64,000 bases of DNA, from the IMG/VR virus record IMGVR_UViG_3300019888_000005, positions 1 through 64,000 of that record. One strand, given 5' to 3'. The notes under the pieces are model-generated. The model ran no database searches, was not told the DNA's origin, and was given only the letters and a program-made list of their open reading frames with translations. Each line of letters opens with the position of its first letter. The first letter of the stretch is position 1. Both the position numbers and the translations under genes were made by a program. Positions 3,412-63,935 of the stretch are shown here, piece after piece. This DNA comes from a virus.

Positions 3412-4771
3412 GTGGCCACATCGACCGAGTTTCCTCTTATGCCTCCCAGAAGTACTGAATCTCGTTTGGCCCATTTTTGACGAAACGGTCTACCGGGCCG
3501 ACTCGACGACAGTCGTCTACAAGCTCGTCGATGCGCTGTGCGGGGACTCCGGTGCGGGGGACCTCAAGAAGCAGGCCTTTCTTCAACGTCTCAGTCAGAC
3601 GATGGAGAATATTTATTTTTCGGATCTCGATTACATCTTCGGTGGCATCGGGTTTCTGGAACGCACCACCTCGGAGAGTTACCCCTATGACCCCGCCAAC
3701 GACATGCTCACGAGTGACCAATGGGACGAAGTTCGCGTCAAGGATGCGTGGTATCGCGCTCGGATTCGTGATTTCTTTATTGCAGCAGGAAAAGGCGGAA
3801 CGCCTGATGGTATTCGTATGGCCACGATCGCTGCGACCTCGGTGGATTGCGATATCTACGAGGTTTGGCGCTACATGGACAACTTCGGATTGACGGCATC
3901 GTTGGGGCGCGCTCCGGTGGCGACTCGTAGTGAGTTCGTGGTGGCCCCGCACAAGAGCAACCTGGGTCAGAAGGAGCTGCGCCTCCTCAAGCAGATGCTC
4001 ACTAGAATCGCTCCACTGGATTCCATCGTCACGGTCAACACGGCGGGGCTGGCCGTGCACACTCCGGTGGCCATCGCCGCAGCAGCGGCGGACTCCAGCT
4101 ATTTCGAGGTCCAGAAGATTGTCACAGGCTCTCCGATCCTGGCGGATCTTCCCGCACCCGAAGTGATGGCCATCGACCTGCGGCCCAGCGAGCAGTGGCT
4201 TCTGAGCGGCAACCCCACCTTGGCCCCTTATGCAGCGTTCAACATCACTCAGGAGTACGGCTACTACTATCTGGCCAGCGGTGGGGCACGGAGCCCTATC
4301 GACTCCGTGCAGTACGGAACTCTCCAGGGCGATGGCAGTGTCAAGAAGGAGCCGAACTACGAGAGCTTTCAGGTCATCGAGCAGTACACCGCGTGGGTGG
4401 AGTACGAGAAGGCCGACAGCCCTGACAACTATCCTGGCGGAAAGTTCGGTCTTACGCCCGACGTGGCCCCTGCGGTCAACCCCGACAACTCACCGTATGT
4501 ATTTCAGTACACTTCTCAGCAGGTCTATGTGGACAAGGTCAAGGACGGGGTCTTGACTCAGGGCGGTCAAGCTGACGACATTCGTTTCAGGCTCCCGATC
4601 ATTGCGACGTCGACCACCAAGAAATCATTCACTCCCGATCTGGCCGTGGCTTACAACCCTCCGGTCAAGGATTCGACCGTGACCAGTAGCTGGACCAGCG
4701 GGCAGTACACCAAGTCTGTCTTCGATGGCCCCAAGGCGTGGACGTTCAACTTCGGGGTGTTCGGCCTGTGA
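3412..4771 (+). CDS. Tail/baseplate protein with recoded 5' end and +1 frameshift at codon 22
   Basis: From the GTG at 3412 the frame encodes 22 residues (VATSTEFPLMPP...RLAHF), then meets TGA at 3478. Shifting +1 at TTT-TGA-C continues as DETVYRADSTTVVYKLVD into an open frame to 4771, about 452 residues in all. Without the shift the first start in the downstream frame is ATG 3602, which has no ribosome site and would lose about 65 residues. The body (IYFSDLDYIFGGIGFLER and beyond) is a structural protein of unknown family, placed between GpJ and a large tail protein as in other contractile-tail phages. A true programmed shift, an indel error in the T5 run, or real damage are all possible. 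Confidence 0.7.
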
Positions 4772-7700
4772 CTCTCGGACTGTTTTTCGATTTTCACTTT
4801 CCACTCGACCTGGTGACGCTGCTGGGCAACCTGCTCAACTTCAAGAATTTCGATCCCAAGAACCCAGCCACTCCAGTTGATACAAGTACGCGTGAGTGGT
4901 ACTCCCAGCCTCGTCCGTCGACCGACACCACTACCGAGGTCATCACCGTCACCTTCAAGCTGCCGTTGTCGGTGAGTGAGTTGTCGGCGGATTTTCTACG
5001 GAAGTCCTGCCGGGTGGAGATCTGGTACAAGGACCGCTCGAACAACTGGATGCAGATGCGAGATCGCCAACGGGTTCCCTTGGCGCTCAACGTATCCAGC
5101 TCAGCAGCTCAGGCCTGGTACAAGTACCGCTCGACTGTCTATCCCATTGTGGCCAAGGCTGTGCAGATTCGTATCACACGTACAGCGGACCCCGATCTTG
5201 CGAGTCGTCCTTATTCGCTGGGTATGCGCAACATTCTCATCAAGCGCAACGTCTACGAGCGAAATCAGGGCGTGCAGGCGTTGGAGGACGAGCAAGACGT
5301 ACTCGGCAACGTCATCACCAAGTACATCAAGGACTGGGATGCTTCCAAGGCGGTCGACTCCGACGCTATTACCTATTGGAAGTGTTCACCTCAGCCTGAC
5401 CCTGCTGCTGTGGTGGCGCTCTATCTCGATGTGCGGACACCGTCCGGGGTAGCACAGGCCATCGACAAGCTCTATCTCGATCCGGTGCACTCGGGGCAAC
5501 AGCTGAATCTCTATTACAGCTCCGATGACACCGTGGCCGACCGAAAGCTTTCGCCCATCTCGGTCTATCCCGACATCGACAACAACACCGACTGGCGTGC
5601 GGGACGCGGACGGTGGGACATCTCGGGAGTGACGGGACAGAACGCGCTCTACCAGGTCACGGCCAACTGGGGGCCGCAGTTCCAGCAGGCCGTGTGGGTG
5701 GGTCTGGAGTGGTTGCCGGACTTCGATCCGCTCAGTGGGCCTTCTCTTACTCCGGTGCTGTTGCAGGTCACTCCGCAAGTGGCCACAGCGGCGTGGGCTC
5801 CGCAGATCATCTACGACCCCGGTGCGGGAACGTTCGAGTTGCATTTCGTGCACGCGCCGGACACGACGATCACCTTCATTGCTCCCATGAGCAAGGTGTT
5901 CGTCAAGAACGAGCCGGTGCGCATCGTGATCGGGTGGGCCTACAACCCCAAGCGCATCATCATCAAGGTGGTCAACCGGGCGGGAGAGATTCTGGCGACG
6001 ACCACTGCCAATGCGTCCGCGTTGCCCGATCTCGTGACGTTAGACGGCTCTATCAGCTTCTTGCGGTTCCGGGGCACCTACACCGCGATGGTGATCAAGT
6101 TGCAGGACTGGGTGACCGAGGTAGCACCCTTCTTGTCCAACCCCACCACCTACGTAAGCCCCGATCCGGTGTTGCCCGATGCGCAGGGCAACATCCCGAC
6201 ATCCTCACTGGACAACGCCATCTACGCGGCGGACTGGACCCAGCAGTCCGAGGGTGTGGGCGGGGTGGACCACACCGAATACAACTCCAAGGTGTGGACT
6301 CCGATCTGGCGGAACTACGTATCGGAGAAGGGCGATATCTTCTTTCCGGCCATGATCATGGCGAAGTACTTGAAACTCGAATTCACCAACCTCACCGAAG
6401 AGCCTTACCCCATCTACGAGTCCGGTATTCAGGTCAGCTACAAGGTGTTCCCGATCAGCGTGCAGCAGGTCGCCACGACGGGGCCCAGGCTCTATACCGG
6501 CTCTGCGGTGGGTGGTTTGTTCGGGGTGGCAAACCTCAACGGGGTCAAGAGCATCAACTGGTTCGACCCCGGCTCCATCCTCGGGGCGCTGTCCTCGATT
6601 CTCAGCCCGCAATACGATCCGGTGTCGGTGTCGGTGGGTCCGGGGTACATCAACAGCACCATGCCCAACCTGTCGGATGGTCCCATCACCAAGAGCCATA
6701 CGGCGGAGTTGAGCAGCAACACCATCTATCGGCGCACGGTGCTCGATCCGTTCGTATTGGCAGCGGATCAGTACTACACGACGATCAACAGCGACGGGCT
6801 CCAGAAGCTCGCGCCCTACACCACTATTCCGTGGCAGGAGATTGCTGCGGCGAACCCCGGTGCCATCGCTACTGCACCAGCTCTGGGCGCGCAGGCGGTG
6901 CGTGGAACGGACTGGTGGCTGTTCCCTGGTCAGCAGCTCAAGATTCCAGCTTCGGTGATGTCCAAGCTCACCGACACCTCGACGGTGACAGAACGCAGGG
7001 CCACGTTCGAAACGCGCGTGCGTTTCACCACCACGGCGGTGCATCGTTACGAGGTCCGCACACTCAAGCGCGACGCGGCCATCGCTTACTTCGCGGGAGT
7101 GCGGGAGGTGATCCCGAGTGTGTCCAGCTACATCTACGGCGTGGACAAGGATCAGTTCGACTTTCCCTTCTACACTCCTGCACAGTGGGTCTTCACCAAC
7201 ATCGCTACTTCGCCTATCGGCTCGGTGACCTATGACGGCACGCCGGACGGGGGGCTGGCCTATGGGTCGATGTACTTCAATTTCCAGACCTACTCGAACT
7301 TCGCGAAGGTGGCGCTGGACTTCCGCGACTCCGGTCTGATGCGGTCGGATGCGATGTGGGCTTCTGCGGAGAGCGATACTCTTTCGCCCTACACACACCT
7401 GATCCCGTCGAACCTCGAAGGGTCCGCGTGGCTGGACAATTTCGTGGACTGGACCGACATATCCATTCAGTGGGGTGCTCCACGTGGTGTCGTGGCGGTC
7501 AATCTCGACGGTGACCGGCGTTACCAGGGTCGTCGTGTGCTGCACTTCTCGCGTGCTCCCGGAGCGGGTGAAGCGGGTCTGTCGTTGGAGCAGCAGACCA
7601 ACTACATTCCGGGCGCGTTGTTCCGGCTGGGTTGCGTGATCTACAAGCCTTTCGCCAACGCGAACATCATTCTGTTGCGTCTGGTACGTAAGCTCGACGG

Positions 7701-8394
7701 TGTCGTCATCTATGAGACTCCGGTCGACGTTACGGTGGGGCGCTGGACGGACTTCACCACCGACCTGATCGAGGTCCCGGTCAATCCTTCCCTGGCTGCT
7801 CCAGTCCTCACGAAGGGTGCGACCAATACCTCGGGTGGAACCTTTGCGGCGGGAACGTATTACTGGAAGCTCACGGCCATCAACGCCAACGGCGAGACGT
7901 TGGGTTCGAACGAGGTTTCGGCCACCCTTGTCCTCAACGGCACGCAGGTTCTCAACTGGACGGCGGTGCCGGGGGCAACGGGTTACAAGCTCTATCGCGG
8001 GACGGCGGCGGGTGCGGAGAACAAGCTCACCGCCACCCTGGGAACCGTGACGACCTATACCGCCACTGGAGGCGCGGGAACGACGGCGACAGTGCCGAGT
8101 GTGAACACCACCGCAGCAACGGGCATGGACTTCGAGGCCCACCTCGTATTGACAGGCGATTCCGAGGACGATCTGTATGTGTCCGATCTGTATTCGGAGT
8201 TGACTCACGTTCGCTACTTCGCCCAGCTGGGTGGAGTGACCGGATTCCTGCACGAGGTAACGGACCTGAGGTTTAAGGCTGGTGCGGCAGTGGTGGCCCC
8301 GGTTGCGGTCCAGCAGTGCAATGTCCGGGTGAACATCCTCTCGGACAGGGGATTTTGTTTCGGTGCCTCGATGACGCCGACGTACTTGAAATAG
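4768..8394 (+). CDS. Large tail/baseplate-associated protein with FN3-like module
   Basis: The GTG start at 4768 overlaps the previous TGA (GTGA) and gives 1208 residues; a longer frame from 4738 would overlap the upstream gene for no reason. The protein is a beta-rich virion component with repeated Trp/Tyr-rich patches. Residues about 1011-1114 (GTYYWKLTAINANGETLGSNE... TGYKLYRGT) form a fibronectin type III-like module, often involved in carbohydrate or surface binding. It ends in MTPTYLK. Size and place suggest a baseplate periphery or tail fibre-like protein. No enzymatic motif seen. Confidence 0.75.
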   Translation: MTLGLFFDFHFPLDLVTLLGNLLNFKNFDPKNPATPVDTSTREWYSQPRPSTDTTTEVITVTFKLPLSVSELSADFLRKSCRVEIWYKDRSNNWMQMRDRQRVPLALNVSSSAAQAWYKYRSTVYPIVAKAVQIRITRTADPDLASRPYSLGMRNILIKRNVYERNQGVQALEDEQDVLGNVITKYIKDWDASKAVDSDAITYWKCSPQPDPAAVVALYLDVRTPSGVAQAIDKLYLDPVHSGQQLNLYYSSDDTVADRKLSPISVYPDIDNNTDWRAGRGRWDISGVTGQNALYQVTANWGPQFQQAVWVGLEWLPDFDPLSGPSLTPVLLQVTPQVATAAWAPQIIYDPGAGTFELHFVHAPDTTITFIAPMSKVFVKNEPVRIVIGWAYNPKRIIIKVVNRAGEILATTTANASALPDLVTLDGSISFLRFRGTYTAMVIKLQDWVTEVAPFLSNPTTYVSPDPVLPDAQGNIPTSSLDNAIYAADWTQQSEGVGGVDHTEYNSKVWTPIWRNYVSEKGDIFFPAMIMAKYLKLEFTNLTEEPYPIYESGIQVSYKVFPISVQQVATTGPRLYTGSAVGGLFGVANLNGVKSINWFDPGSILGALSSILSPQYDPVSVSVGPGYINSTMPNLSDGPITKSHTAELSSNTIYRRTVLDPFVLAADQYYTTINSDGLQKLAPYTTIPWQEIAAANPGAIATAPALGAQAVRGTDWWLFPGQQLKIPASVMSKLTDTSTVTERRATFETRVRFTTTAVHRYEVRTLKRDAAIAYFAGVREVIPSVSSYIYGVDKDQFDFPFYTPAQWVFTNIATSPIGSVTYDGTPDGGLAYGSMYFNFQTYSNFAKVALDFRDSGLMRSDAMWASAESDTLSPYTHLIPSNLEGSAWLDNFVDWTDISIQWGAPRGVVAVNLDGDRRYQGRRVLHFSRAPGAGEAGLSLEQQTNYIPGALFRLGCVIYKPFANANIILLRLVRKLDGVVIYETPVDVTVGRWTDFTTDLIEVPVNPSLAAPVLTKGATNTSGGTFAAGTYYWKLTAINANGETLGSNEVSATLVLNGTQVLNWTAVPGATGYKLYRGTAAGAENKLTATLGTVTTYTATGGAGTTATVPSVNTTAATGMDFEAHLVLTGDSEDDLYVSDLYSELTHVRYFAQLGGVTGFLHEVTDLRFKAGAAVVAPVAVQQCNVRVNILSDRGFCFGASMTPTYLK
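8380..8390 (+). repeat. Left copy of 11-bp direct repeat flanking an HNH element
   Basis: ACGTACTTGAA occurs here at the very end of the tail gene (Thr-Tyr-Leu-Lys-stop) and again at 8983-8993 just after the HNH gene. The right copy also reads Thr-Tyr-Leu-Lys-stop, with AAG TAA instead of AAA TAG. The pair marks the likely edges of the inserted element. Confidence 0.6.
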
Positions 8395-27808: not shown

Positions 27809-28207
27809 ATGAGTCGCAAGCTATCCGACGATCCCGAGAAGCGTCGACTCCAGATCTTCCGTTCCATCTACATCAACTTCTACAAGTGGGAAGCTCTCGT
27901 CGAGAGTCAGAACGTCCAGTTCCTCAATATCGACGGCGAGGAAGTTTATTTCTATGACCTACTGACCGGGCTGGAATCCCTACCACCCCGCCAACGTCAG
28001 GCCTTCGAGCTGCACCTGTTGTTCGGCATGACCGAGAAGGAAGCGGCCTCGAAGATGGGGTTCGTCAAGTGGGTGACGTTGGTGGGTCAGTACTCCACAG
28101 CAGCGCTCAAGCGCATGGTCGCCAGTTATGATTCGGTCAACCATAATTTTGTAGTCGAACCCGACGATCTCCTTGAAAGCGACGACCTCTGTGAGGGGGT
28201 GGTCTGA
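27809..28207 (+). CDS. Sigma factor region 4-like transcription protein
   Basis: A 132-residue protein. The segment LESLPPRQRQAFELHLLFGMTEKEAASKMGF, then TLVGQYSTAALKRM, matches the sigma region 4 helix-turn-helix that contacts -35 DNA. Regions 2 and 3 are absent, so it cannot be a complete sigma factor. It may replace or redirect region 4 of the host sigma, like phage AsiA/MotA-type or gp55-type partners (inference). It could read the GTAACG boxes found in the right part of the window. Confidence 0.72.
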   Translation: MSRKLSDDPEKRRLQIFRSIYINFYKWEALVESQNVQFLNIDGEEVYFYDLLTGLESLPPRQRQAFELHLLFGMTEKEAASKMGFVKWVTLVGQYSTAALKRMVASYDSVNHNFVVEPDDLLESDDLCEGVV

Positions 28208-55824: not shown

Positions 55825-56235
55825 ATGACCACCCACGCCAGCTTCAACGTTCCGCAGGACCAGCCCGTCACGGCTGTCAACCCGAAGGTGTTCTTCGCCT
55901 TCGTCGCGTTGCTTGCCATCGTAGGCATCTTGGCCGGTGCGCTGCTGCACGACAACGGTACTTCTTCGACCAGTACTGCTACTGCTCCGGTCCAGACCAA
56001 GGACCAGTTGTACATCCAGCAGCTCGCGTCCATCGGCGTTGTCCCCCTCCACAGCGAGCAAGGCCTTATTTTCTTGGGACATCAGATCTGCGCGGAGCAG
56101 CAGCTCGGTGGTTCGCCGCAGATGTCGGCGGTGGAGTATGTCAGCAAGAACGACGTGGACTACTCGCAGGCTCAGGGAGCGGTTGCTATCGCGATTCGCG
56201 TCTACTGCCCCCAGTACAACACCTCCGACTACTGA
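55825..56235 (+). CDS. DUF732-like exported/membrane-anchored protein
   Basis: A 136-residue protein. Residues 21-41 (KVFFAFVALLAIVGILAGALL) are a membrane anchor; the outside part (QLYIQQLASIGVVPLHSEQGLIFLGHQICAEQQL..AVAIAIRVYCPQY) matches DUF732, a small disulfide-linked helical domain common in exported mycobacterial proteins: L...G......A...G..C..L.........A...A...YCP. The gene looks borrowed from a mycolata host and sits alone behind its own promoter, so it may change the cell surface. Confidence 0.75.
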   Translation: MTTHASFNVPQDQPVTAVNPKVFFAFVALLAIVGILAGALLHDNGTSSTSTATAPVQTKDQLYIQQLASIGVVPLHSEQGLIFLGHQICAEQQLGGSPQMSAVEYVSKNDVDYSQAQGAVAIAIRVYCPQYNTSDY

Positions 56236-56317: not shown

Positions 56318-56587
56318 ATGCCCGGACAGAAGATGTCCCATGCCGATGCCGTTGCGGTAGCGATGCAACACATCATGCACCAGAACACCTACGAGAGTAC
56401 CTACGAGGCTGCCGTGTCGTTCGCAAAGTCTCGCGCCGAGAACATGGTGGTCGTGGAGCATTTCGCGGAACGGTTTGCGATCAGGCATCACGAATATCTA
56501 TGGGGACCAGCAGATCTGGATAAGGCGTGGGGTGAACAGCAACGGGCAGTGTTCTCCATCGCAGGCGTACGGAATCCGAGGGATTAA
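56318..56587 (+). CDS. Small hypothetical protein
   Basis: An 89-residue protein (SHADAVAVAMQHIMHQNTYESTYEAAVSFAKSRAENMVVVEHFAERFAI). Helical, His-rich. ATG after GAGGAGG with CCACCC. Unknown. Confidence 0.6.
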   Translation: MPGQKMSHADAVAVAMQHIMHQNTYESTYEAAVSFAKSRAENMVVVEHFAERFAIRHHEYLWGPADLDKAWGEQQRAVFSIAGVRNPRD

Positions 56588-56609
56588 ATATCTCGTAATC
56601 CGTAAATCC

Positions 56610-56639
56610 GTAACATTTTTTATACTGTCCCGATATACT
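56610..56639 (+). promoter_or_regulatory. Phage promoter, GTAACA-type, for the ArdC-like gene and polysaccharide cassette
   Basis: GTAACA (56610-56615), 18 nt, TATACT (56634-56639). GTAACATTTTTTA is shared with the promoter at 41173. Leader GAGGTTCACACGG and CCCCACGGAGG follow. No further terminator or promoter was seen until 63948, so one transcript may cover eight genes. Confidence 0.7.
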
Positions 56640-56687
56640 AAGCAAGAGGTTCACACGGAACCCCAATCAGCCCCACGGAGGCAATTG

Positions 56688-57648
56688 ATGGCCACGTCCA
56701 CATCACAGACTCGCAAGCCGGTGTCCGAAGCTGAGCGCGAGCGTCGATCCACTGCTCGCAAGGCGCAAGCCGAAGCAATGCAGGCGTCCCTCGCCACTCA
56801 GGTCGAGGCAATGGCGTCGGGCGAGCAGTGGAAGGCGTTTCTCGACCACGCGCAATCGTTCCACAAATACAGTTTCTCCAACATGATGTTGATCTTGGCT
56901 CAACATCCCACCGCGACGAAGGTCGCCGGGTTCGACGACGAAGGTCGCCGGGTTCGACCAGTGGTGTGCGAAGGGTCGAGTTCCGCGCAAGGGGGAGAAG
57001 GGGATCAAGATCTACGGCTACTCCGTCAAGAAGACCACCGACGAGGTGACGGGCAAGGAGAAGCGCGAAGTCTACTACCCGCTGTGGACCGTCTTTGCGC
57101 AGGACCAGACGGTCGAGTTCGAGGGTGACGAGATCAAGCTCGGGAACAAGACGATCAAGGTGAAACACCGCGAATCCGAGCATCCCGCCAGGTTGCTGGA
57201 GGGCGAGGACACCGCACAGATCGGCCAGCGGGTCATCAAGTACGTCATAGGTCACGGCTGGAACTTCGAGTTCGAGGATATTGCCGGATCGTCCAACGGC
57301 TACACCACCCAGGACGGCTCCAAGCGCGTCGTGGTGGACATCAAGCTCAGCCCGATCATGGCGGTCAAGACGAGTTTGCACGAGGCAGCGCACATGCTGC
57401 TGCACACCTCCGAGGAGGGCATGAAGACTCTCCGCGATACCGCCGAGTTGGAGGCCGAGAGTGTGGCCTACATCGTGGGCGGATTGCTGGGACTGGACAC
57501 CACCGACTACAGCATCGGTTATCTCACCGGCTGGGCGGAAGGTGACGGCGAGGCTGTCAAGGCCACTGCCACTCGTGTGCTCAAGACGGCACACATCATC
57601 ATCGAGGCGCTCGACCCGAGCACCCCGGAAGCAGAAGAGAAGGAATGA
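56688..57648 (+). pseudogene. ArdC-like antirestriction protein, frame broken by a 22-bp tandem duplication
   Basis: The ATG at 56688 (GGAGG upstream) opens a protein with the ArdC N-terminal ssDNA-binding pattern (FLDHAQSFHKYSFSNMMLILAQHPTATKVAGFD). After two identical 22-bp copies at 56915-56958 the frame is wrong and runs on to a stop at 57128. Deleting one copy restores AGFDQWCAKGRVPRKGEKGI and the rest to 57648, including the zinc-peptidase motif HEAAHMLLH and the late Glu helix TAELEAESVAYIV. Restored length is about 312 residues. ArdC protects incoming DNA from restriction. The gene may be inactive in this isolate or switch on by loss of one copy. Confidence 0.85.
56915..56958 (+). repeat. 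Perfect 22-bp tandem duplication inside the ArdC-like gene
   Basis: Two exact copies of a 22-bp unit beginning GACGAAGGTCGCC and ending GGGTTCGAC occupy 56915-56936 and 56937-56958. As 22 is not a multiple of 3, the duplication shifts the frame. The family-conserved sequence is restored when one copy is removed. Confidence 0.92.
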
Positions 57649-57869
57649 TGATCTTCACCAAGACATCCGTGTTCAGCGGGAAGGCCAACTCGATGGAGTT
57701 GCCGATCACGGAACAGCAGTACGACGAGTGGATGGCGTATCCCCGCCATGAACGTCCATTCGTGCAGCACAGCTTTCCGCAGCTCAATCCCGAGCAGCGG
57801 GAGTTTCTCATCAACGGCGTCACGCCTGATGAGTGGTTGGAAGCATTCGGAACCGAGGAGGACAGCTGA
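57645..57869 (+). CDS. Small conserved protein of the antirestriction operon
   Basis: A 74-residue protein. LPITEQQYDEWMAYPRHERPFVQHSFPQLNPEQREFLINGVTPDEW (read in parts) follows a pattern common in phage and plasmid proteins: LPIT-x-EQ, W, IQ..FP.L....REFL..G.TP.EW. Coupled to the ArdC-like gene by TGATG and to the next gene likewise. Function unknown, but the link to ArdC suggests plasmid-like origin. Confidence 0.7.
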   Translation: MMIFTKTSVFSGKANSMELPITEQQYDEWMAYPRHERPFVQHSFPQLNPEQREFLINGVTPDEWLEAFGTEEDS

Positions 57870-58168
57870 TGGGCGGTCAAGAGTTCTACGAGATGGCTAC
57901 GGGAGCGTCGATGGGGGAGGCATTCACCAAGGCTTTCGACCAGGCGCAGTGGGAGTACGGCCACGGTGGCTACACCGGCAGCATTGCCGAGAAGCCCGGA
58001 GCGCATCTCCTTCAGCGCGAAGAATTACCGGACGAGAAGGCTGCGATGGTGGTAGCCGAGAAGATGTTGCGGGGCGACGATCCGATAGCCAACGACAAGT
58101 GGGGCCCAGCGGCGTGCCTGTCGATCCAGGGTGGTAAGTGGTTGTTCTTCGGGGTGGCGTCATCGTGA
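57869..58168 (+). CDS. Conserved hypothetical protein
   Basis: A 99-residue protein. GASMGEAFTKAFDQAQWEYGHGGYTGSIAEKPG matches a pattern in plasmid and phage proteins (A..A....HG..GY.GTIAEK). The C-terminal KWGPAACLSIQGGKWLFFGVAS is a beta pair. GTGA overlap with the sugar dehydrogenase. Confidence 0.68.
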   Translation: MGGQEFYEMATGASMGEAFTKAFDQAQWEYGHGGYTGSIAEKPGAHLLQREELPDEKAAMVVAEKMLRGDDPIANDKWGPAACLSIQGGKWLFFGVASS

Positions 58169-59478
58169 CTGAGATGATGGTCGAGGTGATGGTCGAGGAG
58201 GATGTACTCCTCCCGCTTCGTGGGCAGACGGTTGTCGTGGTGGGGATGGGTTACGTGGGCTTGCCCACGGCGCTGTCTCTGGTGAGCAAGGGTGCGCGAG
58301 TGATGGGGCTCGACGCCAGTGCCGCTCGACTGCGCAATATTCACCATGGCAGCGTCGATCTCTCGGCGCGGGACATGGAACGGCTGCGTCAGTATCGCTC
58401 CGGGGCTCAACTGGACTTGTCGGAGGACCCCGAGGTGCTCTCCGATGCGGATTACGTCGTGATCTGTGTCCCGACTCCGGTGGACGATTACCAGGCCCCG
58501 GACCTCGCGGCGCTTCAGGGTGCCTGCGACAGCGTAGTGGAGCGAGCGAAGGCGGGGCAGACGATCATCCTGACCTCGACCACCTATGTGGGGTGCACGC
58601 GCAAGATGTTGGTCGAGCCGCTTGCGGCACGCGGTCTGGTTGCGGGACAGGACATCTCGGTCGTCTTCAGTCCCGAGCGCATCAATCCTGGTGTCGCAGA
58701 CCACATGCCGGAGCTGACGCCTCGTGTGGTGGGTGGCACGACCGCCAACTGCCTGTTGGCGGGACAGGAGTTTCTGTCTCATATATCCAGCACGGTGCAT
58801 GTGGTGACGTCGCTGGAGACAGCCGAGATGACCAAGCTCATGGAGAACACCTTTCGGGCGGTCAACATCGCATTGGCCAACGAATTCTCCGATGTAGCCA
58901 ACGAGCTGGGTGTGGACATTGTGGAGGCGGTCGATGCTGCTGCCACCAAGCCGTACGGGTTCATGGCGTTCTACCCCGGAGCCGGGGTGGGTGGGCATTG
59001 CATTCCGTGTGATCCGCACTATCTGCTGTGGCAGCTTCGTGGGCGGCGCGTCATCGCTCCGGTGATCCAGTCGGCCATGGAAGCCATCTCGGTGCGTCCT
59101 CGTCGGGTGGTGGAGCGTGCCCGGATGGTGCTGGGTGAGTCCGGTCGTACTCTGGCGAACGCTCGTGTGCTGGTGGTGGGCGTGACGTACAAACCAGGGG
59201 TGGCAGATGTGCGGGAATCTCCGGCACTGGAAATCATCGACGGGCTGATGCACCTCGGGGCCAAGGTGTCCTACGTGGACCCCTTCGTTCCTGCGTTGGA
59301 TACTCCGCTCGGAGGACGCTTGCTCAGTCAGACGAACGCGGATCAGTTCGCGAAGATTTGGGACTTGGTGATTGTGCACACTGTGCACCCCGGACAGGAT
59401 TACGGGTGGCTGGAAAACAGCTTTGCCGTACTGGACACGACCTACCGTTTGGACTTCCCGAACCGGCACGTGCTGTGA
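58165..59478 (+). CDS. UDP-sugar 6-dehydrogenase (UDP-HexNAc type)
   Basis: A 437-residue NAD-dependent enzyme of the UDP-glucose/UDP-GlcNAc/GDP-mannose dehydrogenase family. GMGYVGLP (27-34) binds NAD. VICVPTPVDDYQAPDL, VVFSPERINPG and PRVVGG are closer to WbpA/WecC-type UDP-N-acetylhexosamine dehydrogenases than to UDP-glucose dehydrogenase. The catalytic Cys is 279 in GVGGHCIPCDPHY. It oxidises C6 to make a UDP-uronic acid for the glycosyltransferase encoded next. GTG start inside the previous stop; GTG of the next gene overlaps its end. Confidence 0.9.
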   Translation: MTEMMVEVMVEEDVLLPLRGQTVVVVGMGYVGLPTALSLVSKGARVMGLDASAARLRNIHHGSVDLSARDMERLRQYRSGAQLDLSEDPEVLSDADYVVICVPTPVDDYQAPDLAALQGACDSVVERAKAGQTIILTSTTYVGCTRKMLVEPLAARGLVAGQDISVVFSPERINPGVADHMPELTPRVVGGTTANCLLAGQEFLSHISSTVHVVTSLETAEMTKLMENTFRAVNIALANEFSDVANELGVDIVEAVDAAATKPYGFMAFYPGAGVGGHCIPCDPHYLLWQLRGRRVIAPVIQSAMEAISVRPRRVVERARMVLGESGRTLANARVLVVGVTYKPGVADVRESPALEIIDGLMHLGAKVSYVDPFVPALDTPLGGRLLSQTNADQFAKIWDLVIVHTVHPGQDYGWLENSFAVLDTTYRLDFPNRHVL

Positions 59479-60821
59479 TTGCGATGCTCGCTTCGGCGAG
59501 AAACGGTGTGCGGGAAAGTCCTGTATCTCGTTCCGGGAGAAGCACTTTCCAAGTGGTGCTGTTGTGCATCTTCGGTGTCGTGGTCATTGGGATCATCGTG
59601 CTGAAGGTTTACACCTACTCCAACTTGGTGAAGGACCCCATATTCGCCGTCTACAGCGTGACGATCACCACGTTCATTCTCTCTCGTTTCGGGTTGGGAT
59701 GGCTGTACCTGCGTGCCCGCTCCAGGATTGTGACGGGGGAGGCAGCAGAACAGCTCTACTACGAGCCGACAGTGGCGATCATCGTTCCCGCCTACAACGA
59801 GCCGGACATCGCTGCCACCATCAGGGCGTGCGTGAGTGTCGATTACCCCAAGGGCAAGCTGAAAGTGGTTGTGGTGGACGACAAGTCCACCGACAACACC
59901 CTGGAGCTGATTTATCGAGCGCAGATCGACCTCGAAGACGACGAGTTCATTACAGTGATCCCGTTGGTCGTCAACGGGGGCAAGCGGCACGCCCTGGCGG
60001 CGGGGTATGCGGCACTGGAACCTGAGGATGGGGAAATCTGCGTCTTTATCGACTCCGACAGCCAGGTGACTGCGGAGGGCGTCACCAAGTTGGTGGCATA
60101 CTTCCGCGATGCCACGGTTGGGGCCGTAGCGGGCCATACGGACGTGGCAAACCGCCAGACGAACATCCTCACGCGGATGCAGGCCATGCAGTACTACATC
60201 GCCTTTCGGATCTACAAATCAGCCGAGGCGCTGTTCGGGTGTGTCACGTGTTGCTCGGGATGTTTCTCGGGGTATCGCCGGAGTGCGTTGGAGCCGATTC
60301 TCGACCCCTGGTTGAAGCAGAGCTTCTGCGGGATGTTGAGCACCTACGGGGACGACCGGAGCTTGACGAACTTCCTGCTGCCCGATTGGCGGATTCTGTA
60401 TGCCCCGGACGCTCAGGCATACACGAACGTGCCCGAACATCTGAGGCAACTGCTCAAGCAACAACTGCGGTGGAAGAAGAGCTGGTTGCGGGAGTGCACT
60501 CGTGCCGCGAAGGTGATGTGGCGCAAGCACCCGATCATGGTGGCGTTGTTCTATCTCGGGTTCATTCTGCCGCTGCTTGCTCCGCAGGTCGTTTTCCGAG
60601 CCATGGTAGTGCAGCCGTATTTCATCAACGAATTGCCGGTCTGGTATTTCGGTGGAGTGGCTGCGATGGCGGTCATGTACGGGATCTATTACCGCGCGCA
60701 TCAAAGCGAAAAGCGTTGGTATCAAGGAATTTTCTTCACTCTGTTCTATACAGTCATTCTCGTCTGGCAACTGCCCTACGCAATGGCCACCATCCGGGAT
60801 TCGAAATGGGGGACTCGCTGA
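59475..60821 (+). CDS. Membrane processive glycosyltransferase, hyaluronan/chitin synthase-like (GT2)
   Basis: A 448-residue integral membrane GT2 enzyme. Two N-terminal membrane helices (about 26-45 and 57-77) are followed by the GT-A domain: IIVPAYNEP (102-110), VVVDDKSTD (Asp 135-136), FIDSDS (Asp-x-Asp at 193-195), SGCFSGYRR acceptor site, GDDRSLTN (catalytic Asp, 292-299) and QQLRW (329-333). Three or four C-terminal helices complete the channel. This set defines synthases that build and export a beta-linked polymer in one step (hyaluronan, chitin, NodC, PgaC). GTGA overlap with the dehydrogenase. Confidence 0.9.
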   Translation: MIAMLASARNGVRESPVSRSGRSTFQVVLLCIFGVVVIGIIVLKVYTYSNLVKDPIFAVYSVTITTFILSRFGLGWLYLRARSRIVTGEAAEQLYYEPTVAIIVPAYNEPDIAATIRACVSVDYPKGKLKVVVVDDKSTDNTLELIYRAQIDLEDDEFITVIPLVVNGGKRHALAAGYAALEPEDGEICVFIDSDSQVTAEGVTKLVAYFRDATVGAVAGHTDVANRQTNILTRMQAMQYYIAFRIYKSAEALFGCVTCCSGCFSGYRRSALEPILDPWLKQSFCGMLSTYGDDRSLTNFLLPDWRILYAPDAQAYTNVPEHLRQLLKQQLRWKKSWLRECTRAAKVMWRKHPIMVALFYLGFILPLLAPQVVFRAMVVQPYFINELPVWYFGGVAAMAVMYGIYYRAHQSEKRWYQGIFFTLFYTVILVWQLPYAMATIRDSKWGTR

Positions 60822-62425
60822 TGTTCGGAATGCGTTTGAAATCATTACGACGACGGACTGTGGTGTTCGTCGTGTCGGCGTCGACAACCGTCATGGTGTT
60901 GAGCCTGGTCGTGCTGTATCTTCTCGTGCCGGGGTCGTGGCAATGGAATCATGCAGCGGCCAGAGTCAATACGATCAGATCCAACGTCGTGGAGCAGGTC
61001 GTTGCCGTCACTCCCGCCACTTCATCGCAAGCATTGGTCGATCGACTCAAGACAGCGAGCACCAGCTCGCAGAGTGCGCCGATCATCTTGACCTATCACG
61101 ACGTCGGCTATCGGCAGAACGACTACACGGTCACTCCCGAGGTGTTCGCCGCACAGATGAAGTTGCTCGCGGACGGTGGGTGGTCCACGCTGACTGCCGA
61201 TCAGCTCTCCGCGTGGCTCAAGGGCACCCCGTTGCCACCACACAGTGTGATGATCACGTTCGACGACGGTGTGCGGGGGGTGTGGAAGTATGCGGACAAC
61301 ATTCTTGCTGCCAACCATCAGCACGCGATTGCGTACATCATCACCGGGTTCGTGGGGACGAATGTGCCCTACTACATGACATGGGAAGAGATTCAGGCAC
61401 TTCAGAAGTCGGGTCGATGGGACATCGAGGCTCACACCCACCTCGGTCACGTGAACATCAAGACGGACGAGAACGGTACACCGGGGCCGTTTCTGACCAG
61501 TCTGCAATGGCTTCCGGATCAACACAGGATGGAAACTGCTGACGAATACCATGTGCGTATTCTCGGCGACTTGGTGGAGTGCAAGAGACAGCTTGTCGAT
61601 CACGGCATTCCGTCTCCGAACTTCTTCGCCTATCCGTACTCGGCGCACACCGATGCACCGTCTGGCACCAACTTGTTGAGGGATACGGTGGGTTCGTTGT
61701 TCCAGGCAGCGATGCTCGACCAGGCAGGTTCTGTCTCTACCACCACCACTACCAATCTCAGCGATTTCAATATCGGTCGTATGGATATCACGAGCAAGGT
61801 CTCTCTGGAGACGTGGGTGAATTATCTGCGTGATGCCAGTCCGTTGAATCCGGTTGGCTTGCGTCCGTTCGCAATGGCAGGTGACTGGATCACCGACGAC
61901 GACCGATTCAAGGCCCAGTTACCCATCGAGAATCCCGATCAGGTGCTGCGGCTCGATCCTGGTCCGCACGCCTATACGGGGCGCATCTTCGCTCGGTTCC
62001 GCAGCAGTATGTGGAACACCTACACGGTGAGCGTGAGGGTCGGCGGGTTCGTCGCACCAGCAGACGGGATGACGGTGGGACTGATTGCCCTGTCGGGTAA
62101 TTGGGACAATCAGGTGGATGTCACGATCAGCGACGGTTACTTCCAGGTTCGTCGGGGGATGGACAAGAACAACATCGTCACCACCGGGAATCTCGCCCCG
62201 GACAGTGCTTACACTGTCGTCATCGCAGTACATCCCGAGGGCGTCACAGTGGCTGTTGGTGGACGGCAGGTGTACGCCTTCGTCATACCTCCGGTCAGCT
62301 TGGACGTGTCGGTTGCTGCGCCCAACAGCCCGCGCGCCGTTGCGGGTGGTATCGAACTCAGCGCCAACCGAGAGTTCGAAACCAGTCCCGTACCTCAGTT
62401 CAGTGATCTCAAGGTGGATAAATGA
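60821..62425 (+). CDS. Membrane-anchored polysaccharide deacetylase with C-terminal lectin-like domain
   Basis: A 534-residue protein. Residues 14-36 are a membrane anchor. A NodB/PgaB-type deacetylase follows: APIILTYHDVG (87-96), ITFDDG with the metal Asp (145-150), EAHTHLGH with the metal His residues (203-210), then FFAYPYSAH. A Ser/Thr-rich linker leads to a beta-sandwich (about 370-534) resembling a laminin-G/concanavalin fold and ending FSDLKVDK. It would remove acetyl groups from a GlcNAc polymer outside the membrane, as PgaB and IcaB do. TGATG to the synthase. Confidence 0.88.
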   Translation: MFGMRLKSLRRRTVVFVVSASTTVMVLSLVVLYLLVPGSWQWNHAAARVNTIRSNVVEQVVAVTPATSSQALVDRLKTASTSSQSAPIILTYHDVGYRQNDYTVTPEVFAAQMKLLADGGWSTLTADQLSAWLKGTPLPPHSVMITFDDGVRGVWKYADNILAANHQHAIAYIITGFVGTNVPYYMTWEEIQALQKSGRWDIEAHTHLGHVNIKTDENGTPGPFLTSLQWLPDQHRMETADEYHVRILGDLVECKRQLVDHGIPSPNFFAYPYSAHTDAPSGTNLLRDTVGSLFQAAMLDQAGSVSTTTTTNLSDFNIGRMDITSKVSLETWVNYLRDASPLNPVGLRPFAMAGDWITDDDRFKAQLPIENPDQVLRLDPGPHAYTGRIFARFRSSMWNTYTVSVRVGGFVAPADGMTVGLIALSGNWDNQVDVTISDGYFQVRRGMDKNNIVTTGNLAPDSAYTVVIAVHPEGVTVAVGGRQVYAFVIPPVSLDVSVAAPNSPRAVAGGIELSANREFETSPVPQFSDLKVDK

Positions 62426-63174
62426 TCTTACGTGCCCTGGTCGCAAGTGCAGCGATGCTCGCCGTTGCGGGTGGATGCACTGAATCTCCGGTACAGGTGA
62501 CACCCACCGCGTTCGTCCCGTTGTCCGACAATTTCCACGGGCCCGACGAGTTGATCCTGTCGGAGTTCAACCACCCCGACACGGTGGCGCAGCGGGACGA
62601 CAACTGGGACGTGACGAGTGGATCGTTGTATCGCTCCAACGACACCGGGTGGACGGGGCGACTGGACAAGAGGTCCAAGATGGCGACCGATTCGCAGGTG
62701 TTCCGCATGGTGTCCGTGCGGCGGGATTTCGGCGATGTGACCATGTCCTTGCGGTTGCGCGTGAACGACATGGTGGAGAGTAACGGCACTCCGGCACAGG
62801 ATTTCGATGGCGCTCATATCTGGCTGCGCTATACAGGTGAAACGTCGTTGTACGCGATCTCGGTGGACCGTCGAGACGGAGCGATGGTCATCAAGAAGAA
62901 ATGCGTGGGGGGTACGGACAACGGCGGTACTTACTATGATCTCGTTCCGTTGAACACCGATAATCCCATCCGAATGGGCCAGTGGGAAAGTATCGTGGCG
63001 ACGGTGAGGAACATGCCGGACGGCACCGTGAAGGTCACTGGTGATCGAGACGGTACGCATGTCGAGGCGGTGGACAGCGGTCAGGGGTGTGCCCCCATCA
63101 CAGGCACTGGTGGCGTGGGCATTCGCGGCGACAATGCCGAATTGCAGTTCACCGATATCGAGGTCGGGCAATGA
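62422..63174 (+). CDS. Lectin-like lipoprotein of the polysaccharide cassette
   Basis: A 250-residue protein. MILRALVASAAMLAVAGGC is a lipoprotein signal with Cys 19. The body is a beta-sandwich (DNWDVTSGSLYRSNDTGWTG, HIWLRYTGETSLYAISVDRRDG, GVGIRGDNAELQFTDIEV) like laminin-G/concanavalin polysaccharide-binding folds. It is paralogous to the next gene and ends like the deacetylase. It may hold the new polymer at the surface or cut it; no catalytic Glu pair was identified. ATGA start. Confidence 0.78.
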   Translation: MILRALVASAAMLAVAGGCTESPVQVTPTAFVPLSDNFHGPDELILSEFNHPDTVAQRDDNWDVTSGSLYRSNDTGWTGRLDKRSKMATDSQVFRMVSVRRDFGDVTMSLRLRVNDMVESNGTPAQDFDGAHIWLRYTGETSLYAISVDRRDGAMVIKKKCVGGTDNGGTYYDLVPLNTDNPIRMGQWESIVATVRNMPDGTVKVTGDRDGTHVEAVDSGQGCAPITGTGGVGIRGDNAELQFTDIEVGQ

Positions 63175-63935
63175 GTTGGTGGCACCCCGTCAAGCCGAGC
63201 CCTGCTCCGGTTTCCGCTCCGATCCCGATGACACAAGGAAGCGATCCCATGACAAGCACACTGCTCACAGATTCGTTCGTCGGGCCGGATGGATTCATCT
63301 GTTCCGAGACGCATCAAGCACCCCCCGGCTCGCTGTGGGTGCTGACCAGTGGTTCGCTGTTCCGAAGCAACAACGAGGGGTGGACGGGGAAACCGAACAC
63401 CGGAAACCCTCCGGACAGCGGCAGCACACCGACAGGGGTCACGGACTCGTCCATCTTTCGAATGACCACTGCCGCAACCAATTTCGGCAACGTCGACATC
63501 TCGCTGTTTCTGCGGGTAGACGCTTTCGTCAGCGACAGCCAGACTCCAGCGGTTCCTTGGGACGGTGCGCACATCTGGGTTCGGCATCAGTCGCCGTTCC
63601 AGCTCTATGCGGTCAGCGTATGTCGTCGAGACGGCACGATGATCATCAAGAAGAAGATCAAGGGAGGTCCCGATCCCAGTGCTGGGGGCACCTATTACGA
63701 TCTCAGTCCGTCTGTTGGCCCTGCGCCTGTGGTGCTCGGCAAGTGGATGCATGTCGTGGTGTCCGTTCGCGATCTTGCCGATGGCAGCGTGTCGATCACT
63801 GCCGTGCGTGACGGCTACAAGGTGTCCGCCGTGGACAAGGGAACTGGCGCGCCTCCTCTTCGAGGCAGCGCGGCCTTCGGGATTCGGGGCGACAACGTGG
63901 AACTCCGTTTCGCCTCGGTCGGGGTTCAGGGCTGA
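63171..63935 (+). CDS. Lectin-like protein, paralogue of the lipoprotein upstream
   Basis: A 254-residue protein. Its beta-sandwich (LWVLTSGSLFRSNNEGWTG, GAHIWVRHQS..LYAVSVCRRDGTMIIKKK, FGIRGDNVELRFASV) is clearly duplicated from the gene before. It has no signal peptide: ATG 63171 is fixed by an ATGA overlap, with ATG 63249 after AAGGAAG as an alternative that keeps the whole domain. It may stay in the cell or be a virion part binding the same polymer. Confidence 0.75.
   Translation: MSWWHPVKPSPAPVSAPIPMTQGSDPMTSTLLTDSFVGPDGFICSETHQAPPGSLWVLTSGSLFRSNNEGWTGKPNTGNPPDSGSTPTGVTDSSIFRMTTAATNFGNVDISLFLRVDAFVSDSQTPAVPWDGAHIWVRHQSPFQLYAVSVCRRDGTMIIKKKIKGGPDPSAGGTYYDLSPSVGPAPVVLGKWMHVVVSVRDLADGSVSITAVRDGYKVSAVDKGTGAPPLRGSAAFGIRGDNVELRFASVGVQG

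Follow-up and report, generated by a model that had tools for sequence, protein, structure and literature searches.

A predicted polysaccharide-synthesis cassette of apparent bacterial origin in a Finch-lineage phage

Phages are known to destroy or edit the polysaccharides of their hosts and, to our knowledge, virus-directed synthesis of an extracellular polysaccharide is known only from chloroviruses. Can a phage carry the machinery to build one? The question is raised by the IMG/VR virus record IMGVR_UViG_3300019888_000005 (66,758 bases), whose first 64,000 nucleotides, hereafter the window, include five consecutive genes that a preliminary description, made from the sequence alone, had read as an exopolysaccharide cassette. 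Our answer, which we hold to be reasonably probable, is that a Finch-lineage phage acquired from a bacterium an operon that would place a secreted, partly N-deacetylated (amino)uronate polymer on the infected cell.

The cassette is intact at exactly the coordinates first described. Its five open reading frames (ORFs) lie within positions 58165-63935 of the window, all on the + strand and with zero internal stops, and are closely coupled: the first opens on a GTGA overlap at 58165, a 5-base gap (59479-59483) precedes the second, and the remaining junctions are TGATG at 60819 and ATGA at 62422 and 63171. All catalytic motifs are retained, and the parts on which the claim of a complete cassette had been based, a dehydrogenase, a synthase, a deacetylase and a beta-sandwich pair, were all identified (Table 1), and profile searches leave no doubt about the first three. 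A reading of these genes as anti-phage defence was discarded, there being no PADLOC match.

That the cassette is phage-borne, as had also been proposed, is supported by its surroundings. From 0.6 to 58 kb the window is colinear with Rhodococcus phage Finch in a six-frame comparison, beginning in the baseplate genes (Finch 45.3 kb) and running through helicase, primase, DNA polymerase, RecA and an array of small genes to a homologue of Finch gp194. This conserved gene, also present in the Gordonia phages Stormageddon and RedWattleHog, has a stop that overlaps the start of the first cassette gene by 4 bp (GTGA; junction CATCGTGACTGAG). On its 3' side the cassette is followed by genes for a phage-type methyltransferase (phrog_15480, 1.9e-48) and a phrog_3156 protein; the location is the right-arm accessory region of the phage. 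The colinearity and the phage-type genes downstream rule out a prophage or chromosomal fragment, and an assembly chimera is unlikely, since a conserved phage gene shares 4 bp with the cassette and the composition matches. The source of the record is a large phage of the Finch lineage. Finch itself is a myovirus for which a lytic lifestyle is predicted, and its right arm carries a large array of small genes (PMC13313380). The listed parts of its record, which together span the whole, contain no annotated integrase, and by analogy the present phage is probably lytic. When annotations were compared, neither Finch nor Stormageddon had this cassette 3' of the gp194/gp166 gene.

The preliminary description had named no bacterial source, and here it needs correction. 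In a scan of ~85,000 bacterial and archaeal species genomes, the single close relative was Smaragdicoccus niigatensis (Nocardiaceae), whose operon (NZ_AQXZ01000019.1; L022 6739-11694) matches the cassette in its four gene families and in their order, with identities of 58% for the dehydrogenase, 62% for the synthase, 47% for the deacetylase and 51% for a lectin-like protein. The latter is encoded by one gene, as opposed to two in the phage, and has a different N-terminal anchor. Because every cassette protein has a same-order homologue in this chromosome, the homology is far above chance. The operon is flanked by genes of host metabolism (a GH57-family enzyme, a GT4 and a nitrite/sulphite reductase) and is therefore chromosomal rather than part of a prophage; we know of no reported function for it.

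Of 399 genomes surveyed in the taxonomic order of Smaragdicoccus, six, with Smaragdicoccus among them, had a strong synthase match. Two of the six, G258 and G357, have a dehydrogenase, a synthase, a deacetylase, further deacetylases and a lectin-like protein; a third, G263, has the first three genes, as does a Saccharibacteria contig. The operon begins with the dehydrogenase in the phage and in all five of these bacterial versions. The lectin-like protein is rarely found: it occurs in 1 of 395 genomes of the class and 2 of 101 genomes of the G258 genus, every case falling within this operon, and since it recurs in the Smaragdicoccus, G258 and G357 operons it belongs to the pathway. In the G258 (L033 8981-13480) and G357 (L035) loci, two or three deacetylase genes precede the lectin-like gene; this version is apparently an undescribed polysaccharide operon. 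The three-gene version of G263 (L034 10657-11790) adjoins integrase-like ORFs seen in translation, and the operon may also be mobile on bacterial mobile elements. Taken at the level of gene order and identity, the cassette is a captured bacterial operon, probably from a Smaragdicoccus-like donor of the Nocardiaceae, its last gene having been duplicated in the phage. At third codon positions the GC content of the cassette (0.70-0.76) matches phage core genes (0.70-0.83) and is lower than in the Smaragdicoccus operon (0.79-0.89), which suggests either that the genes have long resided in the phage or that the donor resembled it in composition.

The first gene was described as a uridine diphosphate (UDP)-sugar 6-dehydrogenase; the enzyme family stands, and we refine it to the UDP-N-acetylhexosamine class, not the UDP-glucose class. 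The protein matches the nucleoside diphosphate-sugar dehydrogenase profile TIGR03026 with 378 bits (cut-off 190). Among NCBIfam models it scores 212 bits for UDP-N-acetylmannosamine dehydrogenase and 208 for WecC versus 137 for AglM and 117 for TuaD, the two higher scores lying below their curated equivalog cut-offs, so that they assign a class and do not fix the exact substrate. In profile comparison with the PDB the best matches were 4r16 (2.7e-86) and Cap5O (3.1e-83), whereas the best UDP-glucose dehydrogenase, apart from CalS8, reached 1.3e-48; single-sequence searches likewise place these UDP-N-acetylhexosamine 6-dehydrogenases above the UDP-glucose enzymes. The active-site sequence is PGAGVGGHCIPCDPHYL. 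Cap5O and 4r16 also have GGHC..DP, as opposed to GGSCFPKD in the UDP-glucose dehydrogenase 3vtf, and we take this GGHC/GGSC split to follow the dehydrogenase substrate, in agreement with these alignments. Both the GGHC-DP site and the best scores are those of the WecC/Cap5O/WbpA class; neither the GGSC/GGYC-PKD site nor the best scores of the HasB/TuaD/Ugd class were found. The product would most likely be an (amino)uronate donor and, because of the class of the enzyme, an aminouronate is likelier than glucuronate (GlcA).

For the second gene, an integral membrane glycosyltransferase of family 2 (GT2) with the hyaluronan/chitin synthase motif set had been claimed. The protein matches PF00535 (6.7e-24) and, with scores far under the equivalog cut-offs of 550 and 422, the NodC (202 bits over residues 80-447) and PgaC (117 bits) models. 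Its sequence matches in the PDB include Xenopus hyaluronan synthase 1 (HAS1, 2.9e-32) and the Chlorella-virus hyaluronan synthase (CvHAS, 1.6e-28). The AlphaFold (AF2) model (predicted local distance difference test, pLDDT, 84.3; predicted template-modelling score, pTM, 0.86) displays two N-terminal helices of membrane-spanning length (21-47, 52-86), a GT-A domain, an interface helix and a C-terminal helical bundle; the helices after the GT-A domain are 320-345, 350-380, 386-407 and 412-435. This is the architecture of a class I hyaluronan synthase (HAS), a single GT2 module with an integral membrane part. Foldseek ranks HAS1 (3.1e-24) and CvHAS (2.5e-21) best, with query TM-scores of 0.68-0.77 and with cellulose and chitin synthases behind them. 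A HAS-like transmembrane part is thus predicted, in line with the preliminary description, and the fold suggests a membrane channel; the lack of such a channel, which that description had named as a refutation, is at the level of prediction not what we see.

The motifs point the same way. DSD, GDD and QQLRWKKSWLRE make up the class I HAS set (DxD, GDD, QxxRW and a conserved Arg), and the combination of QQxRWxKSWxRE, GDD and WGTR is HAS-type, whereas NodC has GED and QQLRWARSTFRD and PgaC diverges further, without GDD or QQxRWxKS. CvHAS senses the carboxylate of UDP-GlcA through Lys177 and Arg341, with Arg348 also named (PMC12632751), and these residues align to the conserved K169, R331 and R338 of the phage synthase (numbered from 59478). 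In a tree of 24 synthases, some on long branches and with streptococcal HasA left out, the phage and Smaragdicoccus proteins pair at 100/100, and a 98/98 split sets the phage/operon clade apart from PBCV-1 HAS, Xenopus HAS and NodC. The motif set first described therefore holds, together with a HAS fold, but in a separate clade: the synthase is predicted to work like a HAS, and we do not claim membership in the HAS group.

The anchored NodB/PgaB-type deacetylase was recovered as described, with an extra C-terminal region. One N-terminal transmembrane helix is followed by a domain with the TFDDG motif and the H-x4-H metal triad (HTHLGH) of N-deacetylases of carbohydrate esterase family 4, matching PF01522 (Polysacc_deac_1; 2e-14, 54 bits, cut-off 23.1) and the BpsB/PgaB profile 5bu6 (1.1e-39). 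The protein is not a PgaB equivalog, scoring 102 bits versus 322 for TIGR03938, with only positions 4-287 of the 621-position model matched. It is 45-47% identical to its Smaragdicoccus counterpart, which shares the C-terminal region; the similarity there is weaker in the other operons. A profile comparison was negative for this region being a copy of the lectin-like proteins.

These proteins, LEC1 and LEC2, look like duplicates of one ancestral gene, and profile searches gave zero Pfam, PHROG or NCBIfam family matches for either. The all-beta AF2 model has a pLDDT of only 60 and a pTM of 0.65, and its Foldseek matches, led by CBM66 (6.5e-7, TM-score 0.50/0.71) and followed by polyuronate lyases (alginate, glucuronan and ulvan lyases among them) and lectins, point to a concanavalin-like beta-sandwich. 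Conserved basic residues (IKKK, RRD, RGDN) would be suited to a polymer of negative charge. LEC1 opens with a hydrophobic segment whose final residues, AGGC, do not satisfy the strict lipobox pattern; we take them to be acceptable under the loose PROSITE rule. In its homologues from three bacterial operons the N-terminal hydrophobic segment lacks the cysteine, and because of this shared segment anchoring of LEC1 at the surface is likely. No hydrophobic segment or export signal was found in LEC2. The beta-sandwich lipoprotein and paralogue of the preliminary description are thus borne out in their predicted fold and in the probable lipid anchor of LEC1; polymer binding stays a prediction, and the paralogue is without an anchor.

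The previous analysis leads to a proposed mechanism. In the cytoplasm, the dehydrogenase would oxidize a UDP-sugar, most likely a UDP-N-acetylhexosamine, at C6; the HAS-like synthase would polymerize the resulting uronate donor, probably together with UDP-N-acetylglucosamine (UDP-GlcNAc), exporting the chain via its own membrane channel. Outside the membrane, the anchored PgaB-type deacetylase would strip N-acetyl groups, leaving a charged or zwitterionic polymer that LEC1 could hold or trim at the surface, while LEC2, the duplicate without an export signal, might act inside the cell or after lysis. The resulting coat would most likely limit adsorption of competing or sibling phages, or shield the cell until lysis; this preferred guess, by analogy with chlorovirus-coated algae, is the weakest step.

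Several points weigh against this proposal. Gene content, its intactness, the phage context, the relation to bacterial operons and the predicted folds and motifs are shown; the substrates, the polymer and its purpose are inferred. The mechanism is drawn from family chemistry, and GT2 specificity is not readable from sequence. The Lys and Arg residues aligned to the carboxylate sensors sit in motifs that NodC also has (GKR, QQxRW) and so prove no uronate use. The LEC model is of modest confidence, and the lifestyle and host of the phage are taken from Finch, since the record is a single metagenomic contig of about half a genome. Moreover, making a polymer is costly within a short lytic cycle and calls for a benefit that nothing here identifies.

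Other products can be considered for the same genes. True hyaluronan, made as in chloroviruses from UDP-GlcA supplied by the dehydrogenase and then N-deacetylated, would account for the authentic HASs at the top of the synthase matches by both sequence and fold, and for GDD, KSWLRE and WGTR, which fit HAS and not NodC or PgaC; PBCV-1 also couples a UDP-glucose dehydrogenase with its HAS (PMC7019647). The phage dehydrogenase is nevertheless of the UDP-N-acetylhexosamine class, whereas a HAS-like pair on a Lactococcus plasmid uses the UDP-glucose type (GGYCLPKD), and the synthase clade lies apart from the PBCV-1 and vertebrate enzymes. Hyaluronan itself is not supported as the product by these sequence comparisons, and we regard it as unlikely. 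A GlcNAc homopolymer, chitin-like or of the poly-N-acetylglucosamine (PNAG) type and deacetylated to a chitosan-like coat, with the dehydrogenase serving a side branch or some other pathway, seems to us unlikely as well. The NodC and PgaC scores of the synthase, the PgaB model on the deacetylase and a Paenibacillus relative lying beside deacetylases and a GH18, with no dehydrogenase listed adjoining, would agree with it, but the synthase has GDD where NodC has GED, both scores are far under the equivalog cut-offs, and the dehydrogenase, which comes first in the phage operon and in its five bacterial versions, is a pathway member.

A different view would be that the operon is an unexpressed or near-neutral passenger from a host. 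No other related phage was found with the cassette and, in a promoter and terminator scan, promoter-like sites were no commoner than in shuffled sequence. Yet five ORFs and their motifs are intact despite just 47-62% identity to the nearest homologue, the composition fits the phage, the genes are coupled to one another and to the upstream phage gene, and one has been duplicated and has diverged, all of which makes a passenger improbable. We consider it more improbable still that the genes decorate virions or edit host glycans: the processive, HAS-type architecture of the synthase and the N-terminal membrane anchors or signals of the deacetylase and LEC1 do not fit virion glycosylation, even if phages often carry glycosyltransferases (such as the GtrB-like phrog_841, a weak match here) and LEC2, without an export signal, could be a virion or cytoplasmic protein.

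The deacetylated (amino)uronate polymer that we favour can be set beside known systems. In PBCV-1 the hyaluronan pathway comprises a UDP-glucose dehydrogenase, GFAT and HAS, and the infected host becomes coated (PMC7019647). As in the phage, where both genes lie on the contig, the virus supplies a uronate-donor dehydrogenase and a HAS-fold synthase; unlike the phage, it has an algal host, a UDP-glucose dehydrogenase and a synthase of another clade. The parallel drawn in the preliminary description is thus one of function and not of membership. We know of no deacetylase or lectin-like partner in the PBCV-1 pathway. On the Lactococcus plasmid (L040) a dehydrogenase also adjoins a HAS-like membrane GT2, although the former is of the UDP-glucose class and no deacetylase lies downstream in the operon, and the streptococcal hasABC capsule operon likewise sets a dehydrogenase beside a HAS-like synthase with no deacetylase known downstream. 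Conversely, pgaABCD/icaADBC and rhizobial nodBC share with the phage a GT2 synthase and a NodB-type N-deacetylase, but these PNAG and nodulation systems have no dehydrogenase and their synthase motifs differ (GED in NodC; no GDD/QQxRWxKS in PgaC).

The claim that no such cassette is described in an actinobacteriophage was upheld by our searches. Among viral contigs, no sister phage with the cassette was found with a single GT2, a GT2-clade alignment, a LEC alignment or neighbour genes as queries, nor any cassette-bearing relative with the helicase. In 13 related contigs of the Finch/Myrna type (five of them 125-165 kb) no dehydrogenase was found, with search controls that worked, and alignment searches, made without positive controls, gave no synthase or deacetylase match. 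In the open-access literature on phage-encoded hyaluronan synthase, phage exopolysaccharide genes and Finchvirus, such a cassette is reported in none of the titles or abstracts found. Lone HAS-like membrane synthases occur in 14 IMG/VR contigs (L008-L021), in Streptomyces phage Kromp (gp79, MH744420.1 49552-51063) and in GX15bay (MK557849.1 7105-8466), where genes annotated as endoglucanase and mannanase follow. They belong to the same broad GT2 family, at 25-35% identity, and in the 16 records neither PF03721 (dehydrogenase) nor PF01522 (deacetylase) was matched (family controls worked). The synthases of L008, L009, L012 and L013 cluster with PBCV-1 and Xenopus HAS (86/97), apart from that of the phage described here, which suggests more than one entry of HAS-like genes into phages.

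Table 1. Features of the cassette and its upstream neighbour, in window coordinates
Feature	Position	Strand	Basis
Upstream phage gene, homologue of Finch gp194/Stormageddon gp166	57833..58168	+	45-47% identity to Finch/Stormageddon/RedWattleHog proteins
Nucleotide-sugar 6-dehydrogenase, UDP-N-acetylhexosamine class	58165..59478	+	TIGR03026 378 bits; 58% identical to Smaragdicoccus
Dehydrogenase active-site motif GGHCIPCDP with catalytic Cys	58990..59016	+	motif inspection
Processive membrane GT2 synthase, hyaluronan-synthase fold	59484..60821	+	AF2, Foldseek, PDB sequence matches; 62% identical to Smaragdicoccus
GT2 DxD motif (DSD), metal/UDP binding	60051..60059	+	motif; invariant in A4 alignment
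GT2 GDD catalytic motif, HAS-type (NodC: GED)	60348..60356	+	motif
GT2 QQLRW motif, then KKSWLRE as in HAS	60459..60473	+	motif
GT2 C-terminal WGTR signature, common to HAS	60807..60818	+	motif
Membrane-anchored NodB/PgaB-type polysaccharide N-deacetylase with extra C-terminal region	60821..62425	+	PF01522 2e-14; BpsB/PgaB profile
Deacetylase TFDDG motif (catalytic/metal Asp pair)	61256..61270	+	motif
Deacetylase metal-binding HTHLGH, aligned to HSHNLH of BpsB	61433..61450	+	motif and alignment
LEC1, exported concanavalin-like beta-sandwich protein, probably lipid-anchored	62422..63174	+	hydrophobic segment, AF2, Foldseek
LEC2, LEC1 paralogue without signal peptide or anchor	63171..63935	+	46% identity to LEC1; ATGA overlap with LEC1 stop

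Elsewhere on the contig, an ArdC-like anti-restriction/metallopeptidase gene (56475-57648) reads as two overlapping ORFs, the frameshift arising from a 22-bp tandem duplication near 56915-56960. The stretch 27809-28573 matches Finch gp84, an RNA polymerase sigma factor, as two same-frame ORFs with a stop at 28205-28207 between them, each resembling one part of gp84. After the cassette and the methyltransferase (L003 6886-8532; contig 64885-66531) come three successive small glycine-rich proteins, probably exported, one with weak DUF6861 similarity and another with a weak match to phrog_658, to which the DUF732 protein at 55825-56235 also belongs. A minor tail protein at 4738-8394 (phrog_2840) has esterase/lipase similarity in its C-terminal residues 1018-1119, past the part aligned to Finch gp60, and this stretch could act on an acylated host glycan.

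If our reading is true, a lytic phage with its own polysaccharide-making machinery would reverse the picture of phages as destroyers or editors and repeat, in bacteria, the hyaluronan coat of chloroviruses. We suggest, as a tentative possibility, that this is the first known phage with a full pathway, one that builds, exports, N-deacetylates and binds an undescribed aminouronate polymer on the lytically infected cell, in convergence with chloroviruses. The finding rests on a single contig, and a second, isolated example would greatly raise confidence. Under laboratory conditions chloroviruses seemingly replicate without needing their polysaccharides, whose role is open (PMC7019647). The cellular operon, which occurs patchily in candidate phyla and in the order that includes Smaragdicoccus, itself appears to be a polysaccharide pathway not yet described, perhaps with a new product, and an actinophage system in tractable laboratory hosts would make it possible to test directly why a virus should coat its host.

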